From Planctomycetota bacterium (GTDB lineage: Bacteria > Planctomycetota > Phycisphaerae > Phycisphaerales > SM1A02): a stretch of 64,000 nt of DNA. Within the stretch, counting starts at the first letter, position 1; each line of letters starts with the position of its first letter. The DNA lies in assembly GCA_016872915.1 (NCBI GenBank), contig VGYQ01000001.1:46926-110925 (forward strand), given 5' to 3'. A program made the position numbers and the translations under genes. The notes under the pieces are model-generated. The model searched no databases. It had not been told where the DNA came from and saw nothing but the letters and a program-made list of their open reading frames with translations. Shown here one piece after another: positions 1-8,812 of the stretch.

Positions 1-124
1 TTGGAAAGCCACGTCGCCCTACCAGACCGCTCAGCCCCCGCGCATACGCCAGCGTCAGTGCGGCGAGCGGCAACAGCAACCAGAGATCAAGAGTCCAGCG
101 CGCCGCGCCAGCGAGTGCGTTCAC
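1..124 (-). CDS. Partial CtaG-like (caa3-type) cytochrome oxidase assembly protein, 5' end only
   Basis: This reading frame starts at a GTG that overlaps the stop codon of the upstream cytochrome b/c gene (GTGA) and runs off the left edge after 41 codons. The visible N-terminus is VNALAGAARWTLDLW followed by a hydrophobic helix and a short 'YARGLSGLVGRRG' stretch. A Trp-rich start, one membrane helix and a 'YxRGxxxL' motif are what I would expect at the N-terminus of CtaG/Caa3-type assembly proteins, which help build the copper centres of haem-copper oxidases. The position at the end of an oxidase operon agrees. It is too short for the ORF track, and the assignment from 41 residues is tentative. 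Confidence 0.5.
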   Translation of the reverse strand, partial: MNALAGAARWTLDLWLLLPLAALTLAYARGLSGLVGRRGFP

Positions 125-1632
125 TGCGATCCAACCGCCACGGGCGTCACCACTTCGCCGGGCATGCGCTGCACCGGGAGCGGCAGCTGTGCGCCCGGGA
201 TCACTGCAGGCGCCTCGAACTCAGGTCTGAGCGTGGACAGGAACGACACGAGCGCAGTCATCTGCGCACTATCGAGATTGCGCCCGAATGCCGGCATGTT
301 GCCATCCCCCTGTTGGATTTGCCGCATCAATTGGTCCGGGGTCATTCGGGTCGCGATCGCATCGAGTGCGGGGCCCCGTTCTCCACCGAGCCCATCAAGC
401 GAATGACAGTTGCGGCACTGTGCAAACTGAAAGACATTGGCCCCCTGTACTTCAAGCGGTGTTCGACCCGCCAGGAAATGCTCGGGCGTCGGCAGCGCGG
501 ACCACGCGTTCATCACGGGCGACCATGGGCTCGTCTTGCCCTCCCAAGTCAGTGCCGCGACTGCCATGACTGCAAGCGAGGCAATGAGCACCATGCCGGG
601 TCGCCGGCTCGGCGCGCGCTCGCCAGCATTGGCGAAGAACGGCACGGCCACCAGCGCCAGCACACCGACCAGAGGTGCAACCAGCATCACGGCGGTCTCC
701 GATGCCGGAGGCAGCAAACTGACAGCGCCAAAGATCCAGAGGAACGGGTAGTCCGGGCGCGGATTCGTATCGATCAACGTTGGATCGGGTTGCCCGCCGG
801 GGCCGAAGGGTCCATAGACGGCTGCGAGCACGACCAGCAACACCAAACACGCGCCGCAGAACACCATGTCGCGCTGAGCTGCGTCGGGGTAGAAGGGAAC
901 GCCATCTTTCTCCATGCGCTGCTCGTACTCCGCTCGGTACGTCGCCGGCTCCACCGTTGCGCCAACCTTCGGCATCTCGCTGATGCCATTCTTCATGATG
1001 AGTGCGAGATGCAATCCGATCAAACCGAGCGCCGCACCGGGCAGCACGAAGACATGCAGCGCGAAGAAACGGCTGAGCGTTTCACCGCCGATGATCGGGC
1101 CTCCCAGGAGCAGCCCGCGCACTTGATTGCCGATCACTGGAATGCGGTCGGCGATGGATGCACCGATGCCAAGTCCCCAATACGCGTCTTGATCCCAGCG
1201 CATCACCTGACCTGTGAAGGCAAGTGCGAGCACCGTGAAGAGCAGGAAGACACCTGTCACCCAGTTCAGTTCGCGCGGGAACTTGTAAGACGCATGCAGA
1301 AACACTTGCAGCATGTGGATCGCCATCATCACGACCATCGCGTTGCTCGACCATCCGTGCAGCGCGCGCAGCATCCAACCGAAAGGCACCTCCTCGTCGA
1401 TGTATCGAAGACTCTCCCAAGCCTCCGCCGCACTCGGTGCGTAGAGCGTTGCCAGGCACACACCGGTCACGAGCTGGATCGTGAAGAACATCAGCGTTGC
1501 ACTGCCGAAGACGTACCACCACTTCGCGTTTCGTGGTACGTGATGCGTCAAGAGCGGCGCGAGAAAAGCAACAGCGCCCGTCCGGGCTTCGACCCAATCG
1601 ATCGCCATGCCAACCACTCGTGGCGGTTTCAC
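121..1632 (-). CDS. Cytochrome b (b6 + subunit IV type) fused to a C-terminal cytochrome c domain
   Basis: This is the membrane core of a bc-type quinol:cytochrome c oxidoreductase. I chose the GTG at 1632 (503 aa) because it overlaps the Rieske stop as GTGA and has GGAG 8 nt upstream; ATG at 1608 is the alternative, while the ORF-track start would overlap the Rieske gene by 70 bp. Haem b ligand pairs are H92/H106 (13 residues between) and H193/H208 (14 between), the b6-like spacing. A 'PREL' motif follows helix B. The subunit-IV-like half carries 'PDYP' (about residues 273-276) where PEWY is expected at the quinol-oxidation site. The C-terminus holds a class I cytochrome c with CRNCH near residues 386-390 and a 'MPAFG' axial Met. 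It sits between the Rieske gene and the ctaG-like gene. Confidence 0.93.
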   Translation of the reverse strand: MKPPRVVGMAIDWVEARTGAVAFLAPLLTHHVPRNAKWWYVFGSATLMFFTIQLVTGVCLATLYAPSAAEAWESLRYIDEEVPFGWMLRALHGWSSNAMVVMMAIHMLQVFLHASYKFPRELNWVTGVFLLFTVLALAFTGQVMRWDQDAYWGLGIGASIADRIPVIGNQVRGLLLGGPIIGGETLSRFFALHVFVLPGAALGLIGLHLALIMKNGISEMPKVGATVEPATYRAEYEQRMEKDGVPFYPDAAQRDMVFCGACLVLLVVLAAVYGPFGPGGQPDPTLIDTNPRPDYPFLWIFGAVSLLPPASETAVMLVAPLVGVLALVAVPFFANAGERAPSRRPGMVLIASLAVMAVAALTWEGKTSPWSPVMNAWSALPTPEHFLAGRTPLEVQGANVFQFAQCRNCHSLDGLGGERGPALDAIATRMTPDQLMRQIQQGDGNMPAFGRNLDSAQMTALVSFLSTLRPEFEAPAVIPGAQLPLPVQRMPGEVVTPVAVGSQ

Positions 1633-2213
1633 GTGGACTGCTCCATTCCTGGCAGGTGCCCCGCCTCGATCATCAGATTGCCTCCGTCGATCTTCCATGG
1701 ATACTCAAACAGCCCTCGGGGGGGCGGTCCTGCGGCGCGCGAACCATCCTCGTAGTACGCCCCACCATGACAGGGGCACATGAACAGTCGCGACTGCGCG
1801 AACCACCGCACGGGGCAACCAAGGTGGGCACAGTTCACCGCGAACACCTGATACTTCCCCGGGCTGATGCAGCGGACCCAACAAGCAGTCTTCGCCGCAT
1901 CACCATCCGTCGGTTGACGAATCGGGCTCAGGAAGGTGGCAAATCGAGTCTGTCCAGCGGGAAACGCGTCGGCACTGCCAAGTGAAACCCATGCGCTCGC
2001 CTGTCGCCGTGCGGGCGCAAGGAGGGTTCCCAGAATCGGGACGGCTGCGATGGCGCCACCGACCCCAAGAAGGACCGCACCGAAGCGGAACATAAATCCG
2101 CGGCGCGCATCCTGCTTGGCGGTCCTCTCGGCGCAGCCGCAATTGACGCAGGGTTTCTCATCACCGCCCCGCGCGGGCGAGTGAGCACCAGGATCTTGAA
2201 TTCGGTCACTCAT
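1629..2213 (-). CDS. Rieske [2Fe-2S] iron-sulfur protein of the bc complex
   Basis: This 194-aa protein accepts electrons from quinol at the outer quinol site and passes them to cytochrome c. An N-terminal membrane anchor spans about residues 41-65. The cluster motifs are CAHLGC (128-133) and CPCHGG (146-151), giving two Cys and two His ligands plus the disulfide cysteines. Before the anchor lies an unusual cytoplasmic segment 'PCVNCGCAERT', with three closely spaced Cys that do not belong to the Rieske fold. The start overlaps the stop of the diheme cytochrome gene (ATGA), and the stop overlaps the GTG of cytochrome b, so translation is probably coupled along the operon. Confidence 0.95.
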   Translation of the reverse strand: MSDRIQDPGAHSPARGGDEKPCVNCGCAERTAKQDARRGFMFRFGAVLLGVGGAIAAVPILGTLLAPARRQASAWVSLGSADAFPAGQTRFATFLSPIRQPTDGDAAKTACWVRCISPGKYQVFAVNCAHLGCPVRWFAQSRLFMCPCHGGAYYEDGSRAAGPPPRGLFEYPWKIDGGNLMIEAGHLPGMEQST

Positions 2214-2908
2214 GGCTTTAGCTCCGACATGCTGCGTGGCCGCTGCGAAGAAAGATAGGCAACGACATCTGCCACTTCCACCGTGGTCAGCCCATTCGGA
2301 CGGCCGGGCATCGGCTCATTCCACGCGGGACTTCCGAGCGCCTTGCGTCCGGCCACCACTGCGGTCCACAGTCCCTGATCTGAAATGAGGCGCAGATACA
2401 TGGGATCGGTCACACTGCCTGCCGACCCGCCGACACCGTGGCAACCAGCGCACGCGACATCGAACACGGACTTTCCGTTGCTTGCGTTGCCCGCCACGAG
2501 CGTGCCCGAGATCTCCGGGGACTTCTGTGCTCCGCCGCCCCACAGCGCGCGCATACCCCGCGTGAGCGCGCTTGCCTGCGCGGGGGTGAATGGTCCACCG
2601 CCCGAAAGACCGAATGCAGGCATCAGCATCCCTTGTCCCTCGAGCACCCCGCGCGTCACCTGTTCATCGGAGGCGGCACGCCAGTAAGCGCTGTCCATCA
2701 GTGGAACGGCCGCGCCCACAGCCCCTTGGGCGTGACAACCCCGACAACTGGTGTTGAAGACCTCCACAGTCCACTCGGGCGAACCCTCCTGCGCGGACTG
2801 TGCGGCCTTGGGTCGACCAGGCAACCGGTCGCATGCAGTCGCTGGAATCAGAGCGATTCCACCCGCAAGGAGAGCGCTCATCATCAGCCGTGAGCGGATC
2901 GCACTCAT
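2210..2908 (-). CDS. Diheme cytochrome c lipoprotein of the bc/caa3 operon
   Basis: This 232-aa exported cytochrome has two CXXCH haem sites, CRGCH (55-59) and CAGCH (153-157), each followed by a 'MPAFG'- or 'MPGRP'-type Met loop. The N-terminus has an Arg-containing n-region, a hydrophobic core and 'PATAC', which reads as a lipobox, so the protein is probably lipid-anchored outside the inner membrane. It likely moves electrons between the Rieske/cytochrome b pair and the caa3 oxidase, or acts as a cytochrome c1 equivalent; no separate c1 is visible. Both ends overlap neighbouring genes by 4 bp. Confidence 0.9.
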   Translation of the reverse strand: MSAIRSRLMMSALLAGGIALIPATACDRLPGRPKAAQSAQEGSPEWTVEVFNTSCRGCHAQGAVGAAVPLMDSAYWRAASDEQVTRGVLEGQGMLMPAFGLSGGGPFTPAQASALTRGMRALWGGGAQKSPEISGTLVAGNASNGKSVFDVACAGCHGVGGSAGSVTDPMYLRLISDQGLWTAVVAGRKALGSPAWNEPMPGRPNGLTTVEVADVVAYLSSQRPRSMSELKP

Positions 2909-3747
2909 GATTCGCCTCCCCGCTCAATGCCCAGTCGCTGAGCCAGTGAGCGTCCACGCATGGCGGGAACTCGCTCGCGCGTGCTTGTCCACCAACCGCA
3001 CGCGATGCCGAATGCCACTTGGCTCGCGATGAACCACGGCCATGAGATGTAGTCCTGCAACGCCGGATTCACGGTGGCAATCGTTGCCCACACGACACCG
3101 CTCATGATCACGGGGATCACCACGGCACCGGCAAGCAGCGGACGGTTGGCCGCAATCGGAAGCGCCGTCGAATAGAGCGCACCGACCGCCAGCGAAAGCA
3201 GCAGATGGATCACGACCGCAACAGCGAACCAACCCCCATGAAACGCCCGCAGCGTTTCGAGATCGCTCCCTTCCACACCAGGAATCAGCACACCGACGAG
3301 CAGGTTGATCGGCATCCACACACTGCCATGGGTGACAACTCCCCACGTGCACGCCACCACGGCCATCGCAGCGCCACCCAGCAGACCGCCACGAATGCCC
3401 ACGTTCATCGGATGCACTTCCGCTGGATAGGAGGGACGCTCGCGCGCTTCACGCACGGGAACACGGAAGTCCGCTTCGGGCGCAGCGTGCGCACGCGCAG
3501 GAATCTCCTCGAGCCTCTCTTGGGGGAACACGCTCCGAAACCACACCACAAGCCCGACCACAAGAATGACCACGCCACACGCCAAGACCCAGAGGTTTGT
3601 GACCAGCGCGGCGGCGACGAGCGTCACTCCCGCCGCCGTAACAAGCGGACCTGATGTGGGCTCTGGAATCGCTTTCGCATATGGCACTCGATCCGCGCCG
3701 TCTTGCGCGGATTCTGCAGTGCTGTGACTTGGAGTATGGTCGGTCAT
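2905..3747 (-). CDS. Multi-pass membrane protein of the oxidase operon, function unknown
   Basis: I start this protein at ATG 3747 (280 aa, MTDHTPSH...), which has GAGG upstream; the longer ORF-track start would overlap coxC. A polar N-terminus is followed by two close membrane helices, a short soluble linker, then about four more helices in the second half. The operon position, between coxC and the diheme cytochrome, is where small oxidase subunits (subunit IV-like) or bc-complex accessory proteins are often found. I do not recognise a catalytic motif or haem site, and assign only a probable role in assembly or stabilisation of the bc-caa3 machinery. Confidence 0.75.
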   Translation of the reverse strand: MTDHTPSHSTAESAQDGADRVPYAKAIPEPTSGPLVTAAGVTLVAAALVTNLWVLACGVVILVVGLVVWFRSVFPQERLEEIPARAHAAPEADFRVPVREARERPSYPAEVHPMNVGIRGGLLGGAAMAVVACTWGVVTHGSVWMPINLLVGVLIPGVEGSDLETLRAFHGGWFAVAVVIHLLLSLAVGALYSTALPIAANRPLLAGAVVIPVIMSGVVWATIATVNPALQDYISWPWFIASQVAFGIACGWWTSTRERVPAMRGRSLAQRLGIERGGES

Positions 3748-3755
3748 GATGTGCC

Positions 3756-4355
3756 TCAGCGTCCGATCACATAGACGGTCACGAACACAACGACCCAAAC
3801 CGCGTCCACGAAGTGCCAGTACCAACTGACCATATCCACCGCATGCGCATGCGACCGCCGAACGCGACCGCCGATCCCGAAAAGCAGGATTCCCGACAGC
3901 ATCGCAAGCCCGACCACCACATGCAGCAGGTGAAGTCCGACAAGCGAGTAGAACGAGCTGCCGAACAGATTGGTCGAGAGGAACAGGCGGTCATCCGTCA
4001 TCAAACCGCTCCACTCGCGCACGGTTCCTGCCACGAAGAATGCGCCGAGGAGCACGGTGCAGAGGAGCCACCGAAGGAACGCGCCATTCCTGCCGTGCTC
4101 GAGCGCGCGCACAGCGAGCACAACGGTCCATGAACTCGACAGCAGCGCCACAGAGTTGACGATCACTGGCGCGAGATCGAGCACATCGCGAGGCTGGGGT
4201 CCGCTTGCGCTCTTGCCGATGAAGAACAGGTACGCGACAACGAAGGTCAGGAAGATGCAACTCTCGACCAGGATCAGGCAGACAATGCCGACCTTGCCAC
4301 GGCTCGGTCGCCACACATGCGGCATCGGCGGAAGTCGTGTTGCGATTGGGGTCAT
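3756..4355 (-). CDS. coxC: Cytochrome c oxidase subunit III
   Basis: This is a 199-aa, five-helix short form of haem-copper oxidase subunit III. The start is ATG 4355, overlapping the coxA stop as ATGA; the 284-aa track ORF is extended upstream into coxA. Typical subunit III features are visible: 'KVGIVCLILVES' in the first helix, 'FYSLVGLHLLHVVVGL' with the conserved His pair, and a C-terminal 'SWYWHFVDAVWVVVF'. It lies between coxA and the 280-aa membrane protein and is part of the caa3-type oxidase. Confidence 0.95.
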   Translation of the reverse strand: MTPIATRLPPMPHVWRPSRGKVGIVCLILVESCIFLTFVVAYLFFIGKSASGPQPRDVLDLAPVIVNSVALLSSSWTVVLAVRALEHGRNGAFLRWLLCTVLLGAFFVAGTVREWSGLMTDDRLFLSTNLFGSSFYSLVGLHLLHVVVGLAMLSGILLFGIGGRVRRSHAHAVDMVSWYWHFVDAVWVVVFVTVYVIGR

Positions 4356-6034
4356 CCGCGCGCCTCCGGAGATGGGTCGGGGTCCTGCGGGTTCGCGATA
4401 TCCCACAGCGGGCGTGCGGAGCCGACAGTCGGGATGCGATCGAAGTTCCACTCGGGCGGAGGACTGCTCGTGGCCCACTCGAGCGTCCATGCGTTCCACG
4501 GATTGTTGCCGGCAGGCTTGCCGCGCAGCAGGGAGTGAACCACATTCCAAAGGAAGAGCAGAATCGCGACTGCCTGCAGCGCCACACCCGCAGACGAAAG
4601 CAAATTCCACAGATCAAGACCGCGGTCGGGCTGAAAGGTGTAGATGCGACGCGGCATGCCGAGAATGCCGGACACATGCATCGGCAGGAACGTCAGGTTG
4701 AAACCGAGGAACAGGATCCAGAAGAACCAGCTTCCAAGCCGTTCGCTCAGCATGCGTCCGGTTGCCTTCGGGAACCAATAGAAGATCGCGCCGAAGATGC
4801 CAAATACCGTTCCGCCAAAGAGCACATAGTGGAAGTGTGCCACGACGAAGTAGCTGTCGGAGAGCTGCCAATCGAAGGGCACCACCGCGAGCATGATGCC
4901 TGTGAGACCGCCGAAGGTGAACATCGCGAGGAACCCTGTCGCAAACAGCATCGGCGTCGCAAAGTGGATGCGTCCACCGAGCATCGTTCCAAGCCACGTG
5001 AAGATCTTGATCCCCGTCGGTACTGCGATCAGGAATGTGGACGCTGCGAAGAACGAATTGAGTTCAGGGGAAAGCCCAAGCGCGAACATGTGATGCGCCC
5101 AGACACCAAGCGAAATGAACCCGATCGCCACGGTCGCTGCGACCATCAGCGAGTAGCCGAAGACGATCTTGCGACTGAAGACGGGCACGATCTCGTTCAG
5201 GAATCCGAACGCAGGAAGCACCAGGATGTACACCTCCGGGTGACCAAAGAACCAGAAGAGATGCTGCCAAAGCACTGCCGAGCCGCCCTGCTCCGTGTCG
5301 AAGAAGTGCGCGCCAAGCGAGCGGTCGAGCAGCAGCATCGCCTGCGCGCCCGTCAGCACGGGAACGGCGATCAGCACGAGCACGCTGGTCACGAGCATCA
5401 TCCATGGGAAGAGCGGCATGCGCAGAAGCGTCATGCCAGGGCAGCGCATGACGAGGATCGTGGCGATCAGATTGATCGCCGTGATGATGCTGCCGAAACC
5501 GCTCACCATGATGCCCAAAATCCAGTAGTCCGTTGAGTTGCCGGGCGAGTAGGTGCGCGACGTCAGGGGCGCGTAGGCAAACCAGCCCACATCCGGTGCC
5601 GCAGAAGTGCCGTAGAGCCCCTGTGCGCCGATGTAGGAGTAATAGAGCAGCAGCGCTCCGAAAACGAAGAGCCACAAGCCGAACGCATTCAACCGCGGGA
5701 AGGCCATATCGCGCGCTCCAACCATCAAAGGCACGAGATAGTTGCCCATTCCAAGCAGGATCGGCATGCCCACGAGGAACACCATGGTGGTGCCATGCAT
5801 CGTGAACAGCTGATTGAAGGTCGTGGGATCGATGAGTTGCGATCCGGCCCGTGCCAGTTGCGCGCGCATCGCAGCGGCCTCCAACCCGGCGACAAGGAAG
5901 AACACCAGCCCGAACCCCACATACATCATGCCCAGCCGCTTGTGATCCACGGACACCACCCACGAGTGCACGCGTGCACCGAGTGTCATTGAACTCGGGA
6001 GTGCTTCAACGTCTGCGTGTCCGGCGATTGCCAT
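4352..6034 (-). CDS. coxA: Cytochrome c oxidase subunit I
   Basis: This is the catalytic subunit of an aa3/caa3-type oxidase, reducing O2 to water while pumping protons. The chosen start is ATG 6034 (560 aa); the track ORF adds 44 residues that overlap coxB. Haem-copper ligands are visible: the low-spin haem His in 'MHGTTMVF', the CuB ligands in 'GHPEVYILVLP' (including the cross-linked His-Tyr pair) and 'WAHHMF', and the haem His pair in 'HFHYVLFG'. It has about twelve membrane helices. It follows coxB by 23 bp and is translationally coupled to coxC. Confidence 0.97.
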   Translation of the reverse strand: MAIAGHADVEALPSSMTLGARVHSWVVSVDHKRLGMMYVGFGLVFFLVAGLEAAAMRAQLARAGSQLIDPTTFNQLFTMHGTTMVFLVGMPILLGMGNYLVPLMVGARDMAFPRLNAFGLWLFVFGALLLYYSYIGAQGLYGTSAAPDVGWFAYAPLTSRTYSPGNSTDYWILGIMVSGFGSIITAINLIATILVMRCPGMTLLRMPLFPWMMLVTSVLVLIAVPVLTGAQAMLLLDRSLGAHFFDTEQGGSAVLWQHLFWFFGHPEVYILVLPAFGFLNEIVPVFSRKIVFGYSLMVAATVAIGFISLGVWAHHMFALGLSPELNSFFAASTFLIAVPTGIKIFTWLGTMLGGRIHFATPMLFATGFLAMFTFGGLTGIMLAVVPFDWQLSDSYFVVAHFHYVLFGGTVFGIFGAIFYWFPKATGRMLSERLGSWFFWILFLGFNLTFLPMHVSGILGMPRRIYTFQPDRGLDLWNLLSSAGVALQAVAILLFLWNVVHSLLRGKPAGNNPWNAWTLEWATSSPPPEWNFDRIPTVGSARPLWDIANPQDPDPSPEARG

Positions 6035-6057
6035 CGTGTGTCTCGTTTCTCTTCCGT

Positions 6058-7113
6058 TCAGTGCAGCGATGAAAGGTAATCCACCAACGCATCGAGTTCG
6101 GGATCCGTCAATTGCAGGCTCGGCATGTTGCACCCAGGCTTCAACTGCTGCGGATCGACGAGCCACGCCCGCAGGGTGTCGCGATTCAGAGGCGCCATGC
6201 CAGCGGCGATCGTTTCACGGCTCATGAGGTGAGTCAGATTGGGCCCGAACGCGCCCGCACTCGATCCGTCGATCGCGTGGCAGTTCATGCAGGCAAGACG
6301 CAGGAACACGGCGCGGCCTGCGGCAAAGGATGGATCCTCGCGCGCTGGTGCGATCTGCGCACGACGCCAGGACTCGAACTGAGTTTCATCCACGGCCCGC
6401 ACGCGAAGCAGCATGTTGGCGTGTTGCGTTCCGCAGTACTCGGCACACTGCCCGAGATAGGTGCCCGCCTTTTCTGCCTCAAACCACGTGTTGTTGAATC
6501 GACCAGGCACAACATCCGTTTTGCCATTGAGTGCTGGCACCCACCACGAGTGAATCACATCCGCGGATGCAAGTCGAAGCCACACGGGACGCCCGACCGG
6601 CACGATGAGTTCATTTGCCGTCACGACCGATCGGCCGCCGTCTTCATCTGCAATGCGGTACTCCCACCACCACTGATGGCCGATGACATCGACCGCAAGC
6701 GCACCCTCGGGCGGTTCGGTTCGCTGCACATCCTTGATGGTTCGCACCGTCGCCAAGGCCAACACAAAAACGATCACCAGCGGGATAACCGTCCACGCCA
6801 GTTCGATTGGATTACTTCCAAACACTTGCACAGGCTCACCTCGCTCGCCTGCGCGGCGGCGATAACGGATGATCGCCCACAGCAGTGCGCCCTCGACCAC
6901 GATGAAGATCGCGGCGCAGATTCCCACGACGAGCGCGGCGAGCGAATGAATCTCTCGCGCGGGTGGACTCACAGGCGTCAGGATGCTGGTGCTCTGCATT
7001 TGCGCCTCGCCCGTCGGCGCACAGAGTGGCGCCACATCCGCACCAGCTGCGGTGCATGCAAGCAATACTGTCACGTTCAGCGCGATGCCAAAGTGTCTTG
7101 TCAGCGTTGCCAT
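6058..7113 (-). CDS. coxB: Cytochrome c oxidase subunit II with fused C-terminal cytochrome c (caa3 type)
   Basis: This subunit accepts electrons through the CuA centre. The start is ATG 7113 (351 aa); the longer track start is a TTG. An N-terminal signal sequence is followed by two membrane helices, then a cupredoxin domain with 'WWWEY', the CuA ligand His in 'HSWWVP' and 'CAEYCGTQHANM'. The C-terminal extension is a cytochrome c with CMNCH, so this is a caa3-type oxidase carrying its own electron entry domain. It is the first gene of the minus-strand operon and has no strong Shine-Dalgarno sequence. Confidence 0.96.
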   Translation of the reverse strand: MATLTRHFGIALNVTVLLACTAAGADVAPLCAPTGEAQMQSTSILTPVSPPAREIHSLAALVVGICAAIFIVVEGALLWAIIRYRRRAGERGEPVQVFGSNPIELAWTVIPLVIVFVLALATVRTIKDVQRTEPPEGALAVDVIGHQWWWEYRIADEDGGRSVVTANELIVPVGRPVWLRLASADVIHSWWVPALNGKTDVVPGRFNNTWFEAEKAGTYLGQCAEYCGTQHANMLLRVRAVDETQFESWRRAQIAPAREDPSFAAGRAVFLRLACMNCHAIDGSSAGAFGPNLTHLMSRETIAAGMAPLNRDTLRAWLVDPQQLKPGCNMPSLQLTDPELDALVDYLSSLH

Positions 7114-7220
7114 ACAGAGGGGCCTAAAAAAAGACAGCGAGACGATAACGGGCAAGACTCCGCTTGTCGAGGCAGTCGTTCAGAGAAAGCGCACTTCGCT
7201 ATCCTGTCCACCTTCCACAC

Positions 7221-7306
7221 GCCGGCGTGGCGGAACTGGCAGACGCGATGGACTCAAAATCCATTGGGGCTCACACCTCGTGCAGGTTCGATTCCTGTCG
7301 CCGGTA
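7221..7306 (+). tRNA. tRNA-Leu (anticodon CAA)
   Basis: This 86-nt class II tRNA has acceptor arms GCCGGCG / CGCCGGT (first pair G-T), discriminator A, T-arm GCAGG-TTCGATT-CCTGT and the anticodon loop CTCAAAA, giving CAA. A long variable arm agrees with Leu. CCA is not encoded. It stands alone between the oxidase operon and guaB, on the strand opposite to both. Confidence 0.95.
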
Positions 7307-7330
7307 CTTGCGGGGCGCAGGGATGCGCAC

Positions 7331-8812
7331 TCAATGCTCGCCATTGACTCCTCGCGAGTAATTCGGAGATTCCTTCGTGATCTGTATGTCGTGGGGATGA
7401 TTCTCCACAACGGTCGCAGCCGTCACTTGGACGAAGCGAGCCTGCGTTCGTAGCTCCTCAAGCGTTGCGCATCCGCAATAGCCCATTGCACTCCGGAGCC
7501 CCCCCACCATCTGGTAGACGAAATCCGCGAGAGATCCGCGGTAGGGCACCCGCCCCTCCACCCCTTCTGGAACAAACTTGCGCGAACTGGCTTGGCTGTA
7601 GCGGTCCGCGCTCCCGGCCGACATGGCGCCCTCACTGCCCATGCCCCGGTACGCCTTGAATCGCCGATTGCTGTGGAGGACAAGTTCCCCGGGACTCTCA
7701 TCGAGTCCCGCGAAGAGTCCGCCCATCATCACGCTGCTTGCCCCGGCCGCAATTGCCTTTGCGATGTCGCCCGAGAGTCGGATCCCGCCGTCACCGATGA
7801 CAGGAACCCCGGCCGACTCAGCCACAGATACCGCATTCAGAATGGCAGTGATCTGCGGCACCCCAACGCCAGTTACGACGCGCGTGGTGCAGATCGAGCC
7901 TGGTCCAATGCCAACCTTGACGGCGTCCGCGCCCGCATCGATCAGCGCCTTTGCACCCTCTGCCGTTGCAATATTGCCTGCGATCACCTCGATGGACCCG
8001 TGCCGCTTCTTCAGTTCGCGCACGGTTTCAATGACATTGGCACTGTGACCATGCGCCGTATCAACGACAATCACATCCACTTCTGCAGCAATCAGCGCCG
8101 CCGCGCGATCGAACTGTCGAACACCCATGGACGCACCCACGCGCAGACGCCCGCGTTCATCACGGCACGCACGCGGGAATCGGCGGGTGTTGTCGATATC
8201 TCGCATGGTGACAAGCCCCGTCAAGCGCCCCTGGGGATCCACAAGAGGAAGTTTTTCCACTCGTGCCTTGATCATGATCGCCTCCGCTTCCTCAAGCGTC
8301 GTTGCAGGCGTGCCTGTCACGAGCGTGCGGGCCGTCATGGTCTGCGCGACACTTGCGCTCTCGGCCTGCTTCGCAACGAAGCGCATATCACGCCGAGTCA
8401 GGATTCCAACGAGCTTGCCGCGGCGGGTTCCATCCTCTGTTACGGGAAAACCACTGACCCCCTGCTCGCTCATCAACGCAAGTGCGCGCCCGATCGACTC
8501 GTTTGGGCTCAGCGTCACTGGGTCGACGATGACCCCATTCTCGCTGCGCTTCACTTTCGCCACTTCGGCAGCTTGCTGCTCGGGCGACATGTTTTTATGG
8601 ATGATGCCGATCCCCCCCTCCTGTGCAAGCGCACGGGCCAAGGGCGCCTCGGTCACCGTGTCCATCGGGGCAGAAACAATTGGGAGATGAATCGAAATGC
8701 GCCGGGTCAGGCGGGTCGACGTGTCGACTTGGTCAGGGACGACGTTGCTGAACCGCGGCAGCAACAGGACATCATCGAAGGTGATGCCATCCTGGATGAT
8801 CTTGGGCTCCAT
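7331..8812 (-). CDS. guaB: Inosine-5'-monophosphate dehydrogenase
   Basis: This 493-aa enzyme oxidises IMP to XMP with NAD+, the committed step of GMP synthesis. The N-terminal 'TFDDVLLLP' and 'SAPMDTVTE' motifs, two CBS domains (about residues 95-205) and the catalytic loop '[15 protein letters not shown]' with the active-site Cys are present, followed by '[11 protein letters not shown]' and the flap 'GMGSEGAM'. Length is normal for the family. It is monocistronic as far as can be seen, divergent from the PilT-like gene (95 bp apart) and convergent with tRNA-Leu. Confidence 0.98.

Follow-up and report, generated by a model that had tools for sequence, protein, structure and literature searches.

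The bc complex encoded in the window is probably (we put the chance at about 0.7) a working low-potential menaquinol:cytochrome c oxidoreductase in which the Trp and Tyr of the PEWY motif are dispensable, as judged from what has been conserved among its relatives. The two aromatics of PEWY, Trp and Tyr, are retained in most relatives described so far and commonly count among the catalytic hallmarks of quinol oxidation; in the cytochrome b of this complex the Qo motif reads PDYP. The window is the whole stretch of DNA that was analysed, 64,000 nt from an uncultivated Planctomycetota bacterium (SM1A02; GCA_016872915.1, contig VGYQ01000001.1, positions 46,926 to 110,925 of the forward strand). 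The cytochrome b gene is the last of seven in a minus-strand operon with the order ctaC, ctaD, ctaE, membrane protein, di-haem cytochrome c, Rieske protein and cytochrome b-c. The features, in window positions, are as follows.

121–1698, minus strand: cytochrome b with a C-terminal mono-haem cytochrome c, 525 aa (Pfam Cytochrome_B, 1.3e-47; Cytochrome_CBB3, 1.7e-12)
745–756, minus strand: Qo motif PDYP, residues 315–318, at the PEWY position (from sequence, phmmer alignment and relatives)
1177–1215, minus strand: cd1 segment TGQVMRWDQDAYW, residues 162–174, with Gln164 and Arg167 for the usual Tyr and Pro (clade-invariant)
1629–2213, minus strand: Rieske protein, CAHLGC...CPCHGG, Ser replaced by Gly beside the cluster, low-potential type (Pfam Rieske, 3.4e-7)
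2210–2908, minus strand: di-haem cytochrome c with two CxxCH (weak likeness to actinobacterial QcrC, below cut-off)
2905–3825, start codon approximate, minus strand: multi-pass membrane protein, 306 aa (conserved operon position; no family match)
3756–4610, start codon approximate, minus strand: ctaE, cytochrome c oxidase subunit III (Pfam COX3, 1e-17)
4352–6166, start approximate and probably an internal ATG, minus strand: ctaD, cytochrome c oxidase subunit I (COX1, 2.3e-157; TIGR02891 above cut-off)
6058–7155, minus strand: ctaC, subunit II fused to cytochrome c, caa3 type (COX2, 1.3e-25; Cytochrom_C, 1e-12)

Most flanks from Planctomycetota, Acidobacteriota and Verrucomicrobiota that were examined kept the seven-gene order; in the flanks of two Bacteroidota (Aureivirga) the operon's membrane protein and di-haem cytochrome c had no match. 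The membrane protein, for which neither Pfam nor NCBIfam returned a match, is a conserved part of the bc-caa3 operon in three phyla and is a possible supercomplex subunit. A tRNA-Leu (CAA) on the plus strand (7221–7307) lies immediately upstream of the operon and opposite to it in orientation, and open reading frames called across it (e.g., 6112–7347, plus strand) were set aside as spurious mechanical calls.

The reading of PDYP for PEWY within NPRPDYPFLW, made in the earlier note, was confirmed; the motif codons take up 12 bases within the span 700–830 that the note had marked. The phmmer alignment set 'rpdypflwifgav' on the mammalian 'kpewyflfayail' in gap-free register, and a check of the 525-aa sequence for a PEWY equivalent elsewhere found no PEWY-like motif. 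The AlphaFold2 model of the cytochrome b-c protein (mean pLDDT 76.7), in which a helix begins at residue 317, matched solved bacterial and mitochondrial bc1/bcc cytochromes b (6nin, 7q21; Foldseek, E ~1e-13). The genome bin, a 108-contig assembly, held no second cytochrome b, hence none with a normal motif. That PDYP stems from misalignment, a pseudogene or an assembly artefact is scarcely credible: nothing speaks for it beyond the oddity itself and the 108 contigs of the assembly; the frame is open, the PEWY register is gapless, and PDYP was carried by 19 distinct proteins (the window's included) from separate assemblies, so that sequencing error is ruled out.

Variation of the motif was followed in 107 distinct proteins of at least 40% identity, the window's protein included. 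The named relatives come mostly from Planctomycetota metagenome-assembled genomes (many titled Phycisphaerae) and Acidobacteriota, with a few from Verrucomicrobiota and Aureivirga. Pro315 and Asp316 were invariant in all 107; residues 317–318 took 20 different pairs, and Trp-Tyr was missing in 94. The replacement of Trp and Tyr is real and, as the earlier note had it, unusual; most of these relatives share it. The commonest motifs were PDYP (19), PDFW and PDWY (13 each), PDGL (12) and PDFY (8), followed by PDYA, PDLP and PDFF (6 each) and PDFP (5). The window's genus has PDYP throughout, and the motif was also seen in one Acidobacteriota genome. An even draw across the order that includes Granulicella (80 genomes) yielded 30 fetched loci, a few of them shared with the set of 107, and Trp-Tyr was present in 0/30; PDFA and PDYF were each found in 10 and PDFF in 4, with others including one PDYP. 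Kao & Hunte (2014) reportedly listed PEWY, PDWY, PVWY and PPWF, and noted distinct patterns in acidophiles. The suggestion that PDYP might prove common and well described in this clade held for its first part only; it is common, but no published description was found in the literature searched, and within that searchable part of the literature the clade-wide loss of both aromatics appears to be undescribed.

On a 104-tip tree (a quick tree with long branches, whose root came from a chosen outgroup) the full motif requires 24 changes and the Trp-Tyr / non-Trp-Tyr state at least two; the direction from Trp-Tyr to its absence rests on that root. Positions 317 and 318 require 15 changes each, which ranks them at about the 64th percentile among 366 columns, and positions 315 and 316 require none, so that in this lineage the two aromatic positions change about as often as a typical column. 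Among the PDYP proteins, whose pairwise identities start at 61%, all four Pro codons were used at residue 318, which argues that the residue is maintained there. A compensating aromatic elsewhere in the protein (e.g., F71) was considered and rejected, because the column differences are confounded by descent and W321 also occurs in most PDWY members. By keeping Pro-Asp while varying the aromatics, this large natural lineage separates what is essential at this site (the Pro and the acid) from what depends on context, and cautions that a PEWY string is a poor judge of Qo function.

The redox centres are intact. The haem ligands H114, H128, H215 and H230, as expected for two bis-His haems, were invariant in the 107 relatives, as were the c-haem site C428xxCH432 and M468. 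Rieske genes were found for 105 of the 107, all 105 with intact 2Fe-2S ligands, and 103 of the 105 encode Gly for Ser beside the cluster. This Ser to Gly exchange next to the cluster lowers the potential. Asp316 and CPCHGG together have the form of a menaquinone-type (PD), low-potential bc complex; the Pro and acid of the Qo motif expected in a bc complex are in place (P315, D316), and the aromatics typical of motif positions 3 and 4 (Trp, Tyr/Phe) are replaced by YP. Position 3 is not strictly defining, because the Corynebacterium glutamicum bcc complex has Pro-Asp-Val-Tyr (PMC8795186); loss of the Trp alone is therefore already known, and 'PD' is by the same example an ordinary menaquinone-type motif. 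The earlier note was correct as to the Asp-for-Glu substitution, but its view of Asp as an odd partial substitute does not stand, since Pro-Asp is normal for this type.

The different quinone that the earlier note considered is unlikely. The menD gene scored over cut-off in the window's genome and was present in 11/13 genomes of the genus, and the futalosine pathway was rejected as quinone source as mqnA/D were missing in all 13; menD and the Rieske Ser to Gly exchange point to menaquinone, which, read from the genes, the organism most likely makes. Granulicella mallensis, an aerobe, has MK-8 as its major quinone (PMC3910553), and the G. mallensis locus in our set (L035; the strain sequenced was X5P3, not the type strain) carries PDFA. 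The lineage without a fixed Trp-Tyr includes aerobic Acidobacteriota using menaquinone, and culturable members such as this species make the Trp/Tyr question testable.

Among characterised systems, the actinobacterial bcc-aa3 complex (C. glutamicum QcrB) is alike in its Asp at the second Qo position, menaquinol, Rieske protein, di-haem cytochrome c and linked oxidase, and an actinobacterial bcc was the top Foldseek match. The window's cytochrome b differs from it in an extra fused c haem, in the additional loss of the Qo Tyr, and in a Gln at the equivalent of Tyr153, the cd1 residue that binds stigmatellin in C. glutamicum (PMC8795186); its di-haem cytochrome c is only distantly alike, and the protein scored 117 bits against the actinobacterial bcc family NF050120 (cut-off 500), which places it outside that family. 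Cytochrome b6 gave the best score for the N-terminal half, and the D-helix ligands H215 and H230 have 14 residues between them, as in b6f; in contrast to b6/b6f the window's protein is one polypeptide fused to cytochrome c, and in the alignment with b6 Val63 falls at the position of the haem-ci Cys. With proteobacterial and mitochondrial bc1 (PEWY) it shares fold and haem ligands, but its motif has E to D, W to Y and Y to P, and its Rieske protein is of low-potential type. As aligned with Rhodobacter capsulatus, the Tyr147 position is Gln and the Tyr302 position is Phe (Phe323, Phe in most of the 107 relatives). The R. capsulatus proton network comprises E295, H276, D278 and Y147 (PMC10583091), for which the alignment gives Asp316, a variable residue, mostly Asp305, and Gln164 as the lineage equivalents.

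A Q-cycle would then run in a bc complex encoded together with its own caa3 oxidase. Menaquinol would sit against Pro315 in the Qo site. Of its two electrons, one would reach the oxidase by way of the low-potential Rieske cluster, the di-haem cytochrome c and the fused c haem, and the second would travel via haems bL and bH to a Qi site; protons would leave via the Rieske His and Asp316. Early in the lineage the cd1 Tyr and Pro may have been replaced by Gln and Arg, and the Trp-Tyr half of the motif may afterwards have been freed from constraint; such a release would lead different genera to hold different pairs (YP in the window's).

The bc complex is not the sole quinol:cytochrome c route in this organism, as its genome also encodes alternative complex III in full (ActD family match; NrfD, multi-haem cytochrome c and a fused Mo/FeS protein), and growth would therefore be no proof of bc activity. 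Downstream of the alternative complex III operon (L165, 1587–14875, on contig C3 of the window's genome, G000) come Sco and a second caa3 oxidase; this operon is separate from the bc-caa3 operon. Alternative complex III might do the bulk of the quinol oxidation, with the bc complex auxiliary, slow or leak-tolerant, so that a Trp and Tyr that would aid speed or limit superoxide were lost under weak selection for Qo efficiency. We consider this unlikely, though a rival to be taken seriously given how nearly all these genomes carry NrfD/ActC. The presence of an entire alternative complex III operon that has a caa3 oxidase of its own agrees with it, as does NrfD in 143/151 genomes of the family and in 9/9 named genomes tested, with and without Trp-Tyr alike; NrfD is not specific to alternative complex III, which is itself proven only in the window's genome. 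However, the PDWY-keeping Aureivirga and Gemmatales genomes likewise contain NrfD, and co-occurrence therefore fails to split the two states, and many membrane-domain, haem and Rieske residues are invariant. A link between Trp-Tyr loss and the presence of alternative complex III was accordingly dropped as not separable, NrfD being near universal. No cytochrome bd that might serve as alternative oxidase was found in the 13 genus genomes.

The cd1 segment is a second signature, absent from the earlier note, that bears on the note's question of altered Qo chemistry. Gln164 and Arg167 (TGQxxR) were invariant in 107/107 relatives and in 30/30 Acidobacteriota draws; by alignment they occupy the R. 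capsulatus Tyr147 and Pro150 positions, and the lineage has TGQxxR(W/F)D where TGYxxPWD is usual, which is perhaps a better lineage marker than PDYP. PDWY members already carry GQxxR, so the cd1 change probably preceded the loss of Trp-Tyr. We scanned 21 further same-phylum cytochrome b loci with a pattern allowing Tyr, Gln, Phe or His and located the segment in 19, all of which had Tyr (TGY or SGY) followed by P, R or V.

GQxxR and PDxx might together represent a re-designed Qo site with a different quinol-binding geometry or proton route, in which, for example, Gln164 and Arg167 replace the Tyr hydrogen bond, perhaps to suit a modified menaquinone or a different poise. The invariance of Gln164 and Arg167, the TGY/SGY of other same-phylum cytochromes b and the stigmatellin-binding Tyr of C. 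glutamicum are in its favor; the ordinary MK-8 of one member species is against it, and we regard a re-design of this kind as quite improbable. A possible, if doubtful, wider reading is that a bc-caa3 lineage crossing Planctomycetota, Acidobacteriota and Verrucomicrobiota has re-designed its Qo site so that the cd1 Gln and Arg take over the role of the Tyr and of the PEWY aromatics; it would then bifurcate electrons from menaquinol without Tyr147, Tyr297 or Tyr302 (R. capsulatus numbering).

The same-phylum comparison loci mostly had PEWY or a close form, and the three with TGYLLR had no PEWY-like string. In these three (L071, L072 and L076), which form another cytochrome b group, the cd1 segment reads TGYLLRWDER and (V/A)EEW lies close to the Qo position.
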